Assembly (NCBI GenBank): GCA_944325155.1 | Contig: CALUYY010000010.1 | Location: 1 to 64,000, forward strand | Origin: Candidatus Gastranaerophilales bacterium | GTDB taxonomy: Bacteria > Cyanobacteriota > Vampirovibrionia > Gastranaerophilales > Gastranaerophilaceae | Direction of reading: 5' to 3' | DNA length: 64,000 nucleotides | Part shown: one piece after another, positions 3,498-36,776 of the stretch | How the letters are laid out: each line of letters opens with the position of its first letter | How positions within the stretch are numbered: the stretch's first letter is position 1 | The notes under the pieces: model-generated | Told to the model about the DNA's origin: nothing | The model's database searches: none | What the model saw: only the letters and a program-made list of their open reading frames with translations | Translations under genes and position numbers: made by a program

Positions 3498-3540
3498 TGT
3501 TTTATTATAACAAAGAATCAAATGTATTTAACTCATTTTT

Positions 3541-3794
3541 GCCGACCGAGAAAGCGACTAAATGTCGCTTTTGAAGGAGAGGGCAAGGTGCAACCTTGCT
3601 CCGAGCGTAGGCAAAATCATTAAAGTAAAAAGACCCGTTAATAAAAGAATATGCCGCAACTCACTCTGCCGACTGAAAAAGCGACTAAATGTCGCTTTTG
3701 AAGGAGAGGGCAAGGTGCAACCTTGCTCCGAGCGTAGGCAAAATCATTAAAGTAAAAAGACCCGTTAATAAAAGAATATGCCGCAACTCGGAAT
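3541..3794. repeat. Two-copy 127-bp tandem repeat carrying the tRNA-Phe 3' end
   Basis: Copy 1 is 3541-3667 and copy 2 is 3668-3794, nearly identical over about 122 bp. Each holds an inverted repeat (AAAGCGAC, 5-base loop, GTCGCTTT), a second hairpin around GCAAGG/CCTTGC, and ends with the bases matching the tRNA-Phe 3' end (atgccgcaactc). Only the second copy runs into the intact tRNA. Just before copy 1, bases 3530-3540 (aactcattttt) may be a decayed third copy of the tRNA end. Read on the minus strand, the GCGAC hairpin is followed by a short T-run and could terminate tRNA-Phe transcription. Confidence 0.9.
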
Positions 3795-3851
3795 CGAACC
3801 AAGGACACAGGGATTTTCAGTCCCTTGCTCTACCAACTGAGCTATTGCGGC
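3779..3851 (-). tRNA. trnF: tRNA-Phe (GAA)
   Basis: On the minus strand a 73-nt cloverleaf can be read. The acceptor stem is GCCGCAA/TTGCGGC, the D-arm is GCTCAGTTGGTAGAGC, and the anticodon stem AGGGA/TCCCT encloses loop CTGAAAA (anticodon GAA). The T-arm has GGTTCGATTCC, and the discriminator is A. CCA is not encoded. Both ends of this gene are duplicated in the flanking repeats. A promoter candidate lies about 250 bp upstream at 4109-4136. Confidence 0.96.
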
Positions 3852-4042
3852 ATATATAATTATTCAGTTTTAAATTTTCTTTCAACAGCTCAGTTGGTCT
3901 TATTTGTTTGTCGGTTTCCTAAACTCAACCGAGGCTATTGCGGCATATATAATTATTCAGTTTTAAATTTTCTTTCAACAGCTCAGTTGGTCTTATTTGT
4001 TTGTCGGTTTCCTAAACTCAACCGAGGCTATTGCGGCATATA
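3841..4042. repeat. 93-bp tandem repeat in the tRNA-Phe leader carrying the tRNA 5' end
   Basis: Copies start at 3841, 3934 and 4027 (the last is partial, about 16 bp). Each begins with the complement of the tRNA-Phe 5' end (gctattgcggca). Each full unit also holds AGCTCAGTTGGT (3887-3898 and 3980-3991), identical to the tRNA D-arm but in the opposite orientation. A leader transcript would therefore carry a 12-base perfect complement of the D-arm. The rest of the unit is AT-rich. The first copy's start is the real tRNA end; the other two are fragments. A related single copy lies before tRNA-Lys at 36578-36692. Confidence 0.9.
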
Positions 4043-4108
4043 ATATTATTTAGTTTTCAAATCTTGTCCATACTGTCTTTTGGCGTTTCGTATTTCCAAG
4101 CTTTAATT

Positions 4109-36577: not shown

Positions 36578-36692
36578 GCGCTTTTTAGCTCAGTCTTGTC
36601 GAGGCAATTCAGCCGAGACAAAAATATAAAGCACGATAGGAGTGCTCGGACAACTGAGCGAACGGCAAAAAAAGTTGAAAATTGAATAATTT
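36578..36692 (+). repeat. tRNA-like leader element before tRNA-Lys (single copy)
   Basis: It begins gcgctttttagctcag (36578-36593), a near copy of the tRNA-Lys 5' end. It contains a hairpin with stems TTGTC/GACAA and GGC/GCC, then ACAACTGAGC (36650-36659), complementary to the tRNA D-arm. It ends GTTGAAAATTGAATAATT just before the tRNA. The order and several segments match the 93-bp unit before tRNA-Phe (GTTGAAAG...CTGAATAATT). It could form a stem between its own GCTCAGT and ACTGAGC. Confidence 0.7.
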
Positions 36693-36765
36693 GCGCTTGT
36701 AGCTCAGTTGGTAGAGCACTCCCCTTTTAAGGGATAGGTCGCGCGTTCGAATCGCGCCAAGCGCA
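36693..36765 (+). tRNA. trnK: tRNA-Lys (UUU)
   Basis: A 73-nt cloverleaf. The acceptor is GCGCTTG/CAAGCGC, the D-arm is GCTCAGTTGGTAGAGC, and the anticodon stem CTCCC/GGGAT has loop CTTTTAA (anticodon TTT). The T-arm is GCGCG-TTCGAAT-CGCGC, and the discriminator is A. The outer anticodon-stem pair (C/T) is a mismatch. CCA is not encoded. The convergent glycosyltransferase stop is 11 bp downstream. Confidence 0.95.
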
Positions 36766-36776
36766 AATTTTTATGT

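Follow-up and report, generated by a model that had tools for sequence, protein, structure and literature searches.

Repeated hairpin-bearing copies of tRNA ends at tRNA genes of Gastranaerophilales

The leader of tRNA-Lys and the flanks of tRNA-Phe

The window, a stretch of 64,000 nucleotides from a Candidatus Gastranaerophilales genome (G000), contains two tRNA genes: tRNA-Phe on the minus strand and tRNA-Lys(TTT) on the plus strand. Both are preceded by partial copies of their own 5' ends, in which the slot of the D-loop is occupied by one of several hairpins, herein called plugs. The leader of tRNA-Lys consists of the following parts:

36578-36593, plus strand: 16-nt leader copy of the tRNA-Lys 5' end, from the acceptor 5' strand to the D-stem, GCGCTTTTTAGCTCAG (direct-copy score above >99% of shuffles)
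36596-36621, plus strand: hairpin plug in the D-loop slot, TTGTC-GA-GGC-AATTCA-GCC-GA-GACAA, with tandem G-A mismatches
36630-36646, plus strand: second hairpin, AGCAC-GATAGGA-GTGCT, a remnant of the tRNA 3' D-stem/anticodon 5' strand together with its complement
36639-36659, plus strand: 21-nt antisense strand, GGAGTGCTCGGACAACTGAGC, directed against the D-arm and anticodon 5' strand of the tRNA (antisense score above >99% of shuffles)
36675-36688, plus strand: box TTGAAAATTGAATA, a box of the kind that precedes most unit-bearing tRNAs
36692-36766, plus strand: intact tRNA-Lys(TTT)

In the tRNA, the counterpart of the leader copy GCGCTTTTTAGCTCAG reads GCGCTTGTAGCTCAG. The antisense strand GGAGTGCTCGGACAACTGAGC, whose final part is ACAACTGAGC (36650-36659), is complementary to tRNA GCTCAGTTGGTAGAGCACTCC with two small mismatches and is paired with the tRNA in the minimum-energy fold. 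The leader is predicted to be more stable than its shuffles (folding z -3.0), and the plug is conserved in three congeners, with double changes. Hence, all parts claimed by the earlier note—partial tRNA 5' end, fold-back, D-arm antisense, box, and tRNA—are present in the sequence. The orthologous tRNA-Lys(TTT) genes in L050, L052, and L060 (genomes G002, G005, and G019) are labeled "tRNA-Stop(tta)" by ARAGORN with the anticodon off by one base, which is a software quirk.

The surroundings of tRNA-Phe are more extended, with units on the 5' side and copies of plug 1, the commonest plug, on the 3' side:

3531-3582, plus strand: second plug-1 hairpin on the 3' side of tRNA-Phe, diverged, in the same orientation as the one at 3663-3709 (38.5 bits)
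3600-3662, plus strand: direct repeat X, which includes the complement of the tRNA-Phe 3' end and ends exactly at the plug start
3663-3709, plus strand: plug-1 hairpin ACTCTGCCGA..CTAAATG..GAGAGG in antisense orientation on the 3' side of tRNA-Phe (57.2 bits)
3727-3789, plus strand: direct repeat X once more, extending into the intact tRNA-Phe gene
3778-3852, minus strand: intact tRNA-Phe(GAA)
3853-3945, minus strand: proximal leader unit with 5' copy, plug CGGTTGAG..GGAAACCG, antisense ACCAACTGAGC, and box-like TTTAAAACTGAATA
3946-4038, minus strand: distal tandem copy of the leader unit
4047-4060, minus strand: box TTGAAAACTAAATA before the first unit

The unit thus occurs twice at 3853-4038 (minus strand) with a period of 93 nt, and its parts follow the same order as in the leader of tRNA-Lys, as the earlier note had recognized from one unit. 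On the 3' side, each plug-1 hairpin is followed by a 63-bp direct repeat carrying the complement of the tRNA-Phe 3' end. Since these hairpins lie on the plus strand and tRNA-Phe on the minus strand, they are antisense to the tRNA.

When the leaders of tRNA-Lys and tRNA-Phe are aligned with each other, the score exceeds that of 996 of 1000 dinucleotide shuffles, but solely through the antisense segment and the box. The hairpin parts taken alone show no alignment beyond chance, with 254 of 1000 shuffles aligning as well, and sequence homology of the two fold-backs is not supported. The proposed common leader holds for the architecture, in which antisense and box align, but not for the fold-back sequence. 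Hence, each leader is built from its own tRNA, and the family is one of architecture.

Units and plugs across the family

The upstream regions of tRNA genes were read in five genomes: that of the window, the related G002, G008, and G009, and G017, which belongs to a different family within the order. The first 24 nt of the tRNA recur upstream as a direct copy, scoring above the 99th percentile of shuffles, at 11 of the 39 tRNA genes in the window's genome, where ~0.4 would be expected by chance. The same holds for 6/38 genes in G002, 10/38 in G008, and 8/31 in G009, and for none of 25 in G017. Antisense to tRNA positions 8-45 exceeds >99% of shuffles at 7/39 tRNA genes in G000, 5/38 in G002, 12/38 in G008, 3/31 in G009, and 2/25 in G017. 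Exact antisense runs of 10-18 nt are found at ~20 tRNA genes of the five genomes, as opposed to ≤8 nt in shuffles, the longest being the 18 nt at Asn in G008. Some tRNA genes are preceded by more than one broken copy of their own front end, and sister species differ in the gain or loss of units at the same isoacceptor. Further copies thus exist both in this genome and in its relatives, and some rather than all tRNA genes carry them. The earlier claim of a shared leader family, as opposed to chance, was if anything understated, since ~15-28% of the tRNA genes in the unit-bearing genomes read are affected, across a bacterial family. Because a broken 5' copy is combined with a plug and frequently with an antisense strand, each such tRNA is made beside an RNA that might misfold it. 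The papers searched contain no description of such tRNA leaders.

The full unit has the order: box plus tRNA nucleotides 1 to ~12-16; plug in the D-loop slot; remnant of tRNA nucleotides 18-26 or beyond; often an inverted D-arm; box; and intact tRNA. In its minimal form (L093, L145), it is reduced to [box..tRNA 1-12]-plug-[tRNA 18-26]-[box..tRNA], to which fuller units add the inverted copy of the D-arm. The direct repeat ends exactly at the first plug base in 88 of 98 significant cases, compared with 0 of 130 shuffles. Where the antisense of the tRNA from G18 ends, the next five bases match the D-loop of the intact tRNA at 2.47 positions on average, those of other isoacceptors at 1.02, and the plug-bearing leader copy at 0.59. 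Hence, an intact tRNA either served as the template of the inverted copy or constrains its sequence, and the idea that the antisense merely neutralizes the 5' copy of the leader was rejected. An antisense strand as the defining part of every unit was rejected as well, as it exceeds the null in only 23 of 89 distinct plug-1 tails of a wider sample. Directly before tRNA-Met(CAT) genes starting with GGGCCTGTGGC, the bases GCCAC or GTCAC, complementary to tRNA positions 8-12 (GTGGC), recur in many species (e.g., L077, L086, and L152), including the G-U variant.

Apart from those at Arg-CCT, the units are partial tRNA copies. In L015, two nearly whole pseudo-tRNA-Arg(CCT) copies precede the real gene (1253-1327 and 1377-1451, corresponding to G000:C3:179348-179422 and 179472-179546). 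With 36.9 bits against the Rfam tRNA model, they lie above its cut-off and may be counted as tRNA genes by annotation pipelines.

Plug 1 is a 45-nt k-turn-like hairpin with the consensus ACTCTGCCGA-stem-loop-GAGAGG. Across 37 distinct 45-nt sequences, its 15 pairs contain 74 double-change cells compared with 26.7 in shuffles, and its covariation score of 0.317 (0.104 in shuffles) is reached by 0 of 500 shuffles, the signal being abolished by sliding the partner. The base CTC-TGCC-GA..GA-GAG is nearly invariant, with the pairs G9-A41 in 36/37 and A10-G40 in 37/37 sequences. Stem pairs 2 and 3 are non-Watson-Crick in most sequences, and a second tandem G-A is present in 22/37 and 19/37, respectively. 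By its sequence, this base would fit a k-turn, but with a bulge of 4 nt instead of the usual 3. The other plugs (Lys, Phe, Met, and Asn; Pro-CGG with Thr-GGT; Phe with Thr-CGT in G009) differ from plug 1 in sequence; as judged by eye, most again have GA..GA flanking an inner hairpin. A terminal loop TAAAT as a universal plug feature was rejected because of other loops in G002 and G009. From the leader position and the k-turn-like motif, one could think of a regulatory RNA that is already described, such as the T-box or some other Rfam family. We regard this as highly improbable: the element precedes tRNA genes and not tRNA-regulated mRNAs, Rfam at gathering thresholds matched only tRNA in the window, and at eleven loci nothing but tRNA rose above a family's cut-off even with a relaxed E-value.

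A covariance-model search of sampled genomes, which gives lower bounds, places plug 1 in at least 93 of the 95 genomes that represent the window's family (Gastranaerophilales) and in at least 3 of the 22 that represent the rest of the order; outside the window's family, none is present among the matches listed for a phylum-wide sample of 194 genomes. Copies per genome range from 1 to >46. Nearly every named record in which the plug-1 pattern occurs is a MAG of Candidatus Gastranaerophilales or a gut MAG. Contig JAMPCZ010000013.1 (L073), labeled Muribaculaceae, has a plug-1 unit before tRNA-Met and is probably a misbinned Gastranaerophilales contig. Contigs often end at tRNA loci, part of which have units (starts of G000 C3, C9, and C15; many database contigs), as though the arrays interrupted short-read assemblies, and copy numbers are probably underestimated. 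Such contig ends, e.g., the start of C3, and the Muribaculaceae label are what an assembly or binning artefact would leave, but the element occurs in >90 independent genomes and inside long contigs, so that we give this explanation almost no credence.

In a contig sample drawn by a pattern requiring GC before ACTCTG and a CTAAATG loop, at least 95 plug-1 copies lie in sense orientation in a tRNA 5' leader, at least 6 in antisense orientation on the 3' side of a tRNA, which is Gln in every case, at least 26 away from tRNAs, and at least 19 at sequence ends. Because the pattern requires this GC, it is partly responsible for the apparent insertion directly behind GGC/AGC; plugs were also found after GCAGT(T)G. 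In total, antisense copies at tRNA 3' ends are seen for Gln, Phe, and Leu. Plug-1 copies away from tRNAs either form the tip of a REP-like hairpin or are part of a dispersed repeat, for which 12 copies were read in G087. This repeat, GTCACCCTGAACTTG..TTTCAGGATGACA, is a few hundred bases long, has about a dozen similar copies (L336-L347 in G087, in addition to L075, L080, and L135), and carries plug 1 at the tip of its inner palindrome.

Plugs are also exchanged at homologous sites. The plug at Pro-TGG is plug 1 in G000, whereas G002 has a variant and G008 a third type there. One plug is shared by two tRNAs of a genome in G002 (Pro-TGG and Pro-CGG) and in G009 (Phe and Thr-CGT). The mobility that the earlier note had suggested for the leader thus fits its hairpin plug: within a genome, one plug can be found at several tRNAs; between sister species, a given tRNA can have different plugs; and further copies lie elsewhere in the genomes.

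The box precedes 7 of the 11 unit-bearing tRNAs and 3 of the 28 others in the window's genome (≤2 mismatches). It may resemble the stretch that follows boxA, the NusB/S10-binding antiterminator sequence, in the rRNA leaders of low-GC bacteria. Exact matches to TTGANAAYTNAATA at G000:C14:5895-5908 and C15:30295-30308 have no tRNA assigned to them and could mark rRNA or unassembled tRNA loci. The bias of the box toward unit-bearing tRNAs and the strong covariation of the plug would be expected of a constitutive functional leader, an element for processing, antitermination, or stability in which box and hairpin matter and the pairing with the tRNA is incidental. Most tRNA genes lack both unit and box, though, and plugs also occur outside tRNA loci, which makes this account improbable.

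Probable origin of the units and a possible pre-tRNA switch

The explanation we favor, with confidence only slightly on its side, is that the leader of tRNA-Lys represents one copy of a tRNA-end repeat unit and that mobile hairpins have settled in tRNA ends duplicated by template switching. Most likely, the unit is created when replication template switching or a similar event copies the end of a tRNA locally in the order direct-inverted-direct. Small mobile hairpins that settle at hairpin tips would then occupy the dispensable duplicated copy, recombination between direct repeats would expand and contract the arrays, and selection would keep the tRNA itself intact. On the 5' side, the units are probably transcribed as part of the precursor leader. 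A double template switch is expected to yield the order direct-inverted-direct, and such switches are documented to generate RNA hairpins as well as compensatory changes that require no selection (PMC8794818); thus, template switching could maintain the covariation of plug 1 too. Mobile hairpins acting at the DNA level are favored by the differences of sister species in units and plugs, by copies on both strands near tRNAs, and by copies elsewhere. As a mobilizer of the plugs, a Y1 transposase was rejected: the window's genome has 0 such genes, and in the 7 of 20 relatives that have them, none has plug cores nearby. Two observations point away from a DNA-level process. The preference of plug 1 for sense 5' over antisense 3' positions, 95 versus 6 among the matches listed, is not required by a purely DNA-level process. 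In three species, the leaders of Pro-TGG have retained the antisense to the D-loop although neither their plugs nor their spacers can be aligned, a hint that the pairing is under selection.

A partial tRNA copy, an insert, and an intact gene, with direct repeats at both ends, are also what integration leaves behind (PMC9897764), and the units could in principle be attachment-site scars of phages or integrative elements at tRNA genes. This is very improbable, as the nearest unit measures 58-179 nt, too short for a gene, and as the insert holds antisense to the local tRNA and many different tRNAs are affected. Viral contigs contain neither the core nor the pattern of plug 1, and a viral origin of this plug was rejected.

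Units with an antisense strand are predicted to destroy the cloverleaf at equilibrium, and a regulatory pre-tRNA switch acting in cis is therefore the main rival, possible but clearly less probable than the mobile hairpins. Herein, the leader would fold on itself during transcription, allowing the tRNA to form; in the other state, the antisense strand would pair with the 5' half of the tRNA, the 5' copy would take its 3' acceptor strand, and the tRNA would not be matured. The k-turn-like or tandem-GA hairpin would be the candidate protein or ligand site that sets the balance.

For Lys, the minimum-energy fold of leader and tRNA is such a strand swap (-71.2 kcal/mol, z -5.3), in which the 3' acceptor strand of the tRNA is predicted to be taken by leader TTGCGCTT and the 5' half of the tRNA by the antisense strand of the leader. 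Among predicted folds in four genomes, leaders with copy and antisense show a mean coupling of -9.3 kcal/mol and own-acceptor pairing <0.05 in 22 of 25 cases, compared with -1.2 kcal/mol and 16 of 107 for tRNAs without units. The exact antisense runs, the antisense of Pro-TGG retained beside three different plugs, and the nearly invariant basal motif are likewise consistent with a switch. The leader is possibly regulated, as the earlier note had proposed as its other option. Promoter-like sequence is seen by eye upstream of units in the genomes read. Against a switch stand the scarcity of above-null antisense in the wider sample of plug-1 tails, the absence of the leader at the same tRNA in sister species, and the antisense-oriented plug copies at tRNA 3' ends; moreover, equilibrium folding ignores that the leader folds first during transcription. 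A bolder form, to which we give somewhat less credence still, would make these leaders family-wide self-targeting tRNA switches, each with a decoy of the tRNA's own 5' half and an antisense strand, where a plug-bound protein or ligand decides between folding and a strand-swapped dead form.

Significance and relation to known systems

Few bacterial genes are as conserved and as little decorated as those of tRNAs. In a whole family of gut bacteria, many of them carry changing arrays of decoy ends whose hairpins are exchanged from locus to locus, and a tRNA paired as predicted would be disabled if the order of folding did not prevent it. The units would represent either a form of tRNA regulation that is new as a class or a clear example from nature of how mobile hairpins and template switching affect RNA genes that are essential.

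Mobile palindromic elements are known in several kinds, the Rickettsia palindromic elements being one. Tandem tRNA pseudogenes were reportedly found in Photobacterium in the 1980s; as there, degenerate tRNA copies stand here in tandem before a real tRNA, and we know of no mobile hairpin or antisense strand in that system. T-box and other leader switches resemble the units in being leader RNAs with mutually exclusive folds that involve a tRNA. They differ in that the pairing here would be in cis with the leader's own downstream tRNA, and the T-box covariance model gives no match. With the REP/RAYT (TnpA-REP) system, the plugs share dispersed hairpins, some copies even lying at the tips of REP-like hairpins, but the Y1 transposase is absent from the window's genome and the cores do not lie beside the Y1 genes of relatives.

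As short, dispersed, non-coding hairpins with a conserved fold, present or absent between close relatives, the plugs resemble the GC clusters of yeast mitochondria (PMC4478555) and the repetitive hairpin-forming elements of sponge mitochondria (PMC2800124). Like them, the plug occupies several sites per genome and is polymorphic for presence at homologous sites of close relatives. GC-rich palindromes adjoin tRNA genes in Neurospora mitochondria, according to the citation of Yin et al. 1981 in PMC4478555. The present hairpins differ from mobile palindromic elements by residing within a partial copy of the very tRNA that they precede, by repeats ending exactly at the hairpin, and by the inverted D-arm copy. 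Partial tRNAs of integrative elements (PMC9897764) likewise form direct repeats with the complete tRNA; here, the copies are separated by tens of bases instead of kilobases, with no room for an integrase, and they form tandem arrays and include local antisense. In template-switch hairpins (PMC8794818), reverse-complement copies of a local stretch create and maintain hairpins, as proposed here; those stems lie inside RNA genes, whereas in Gastranaerophilales the end of the tRNA is duplicated, and this at many tRNAs.
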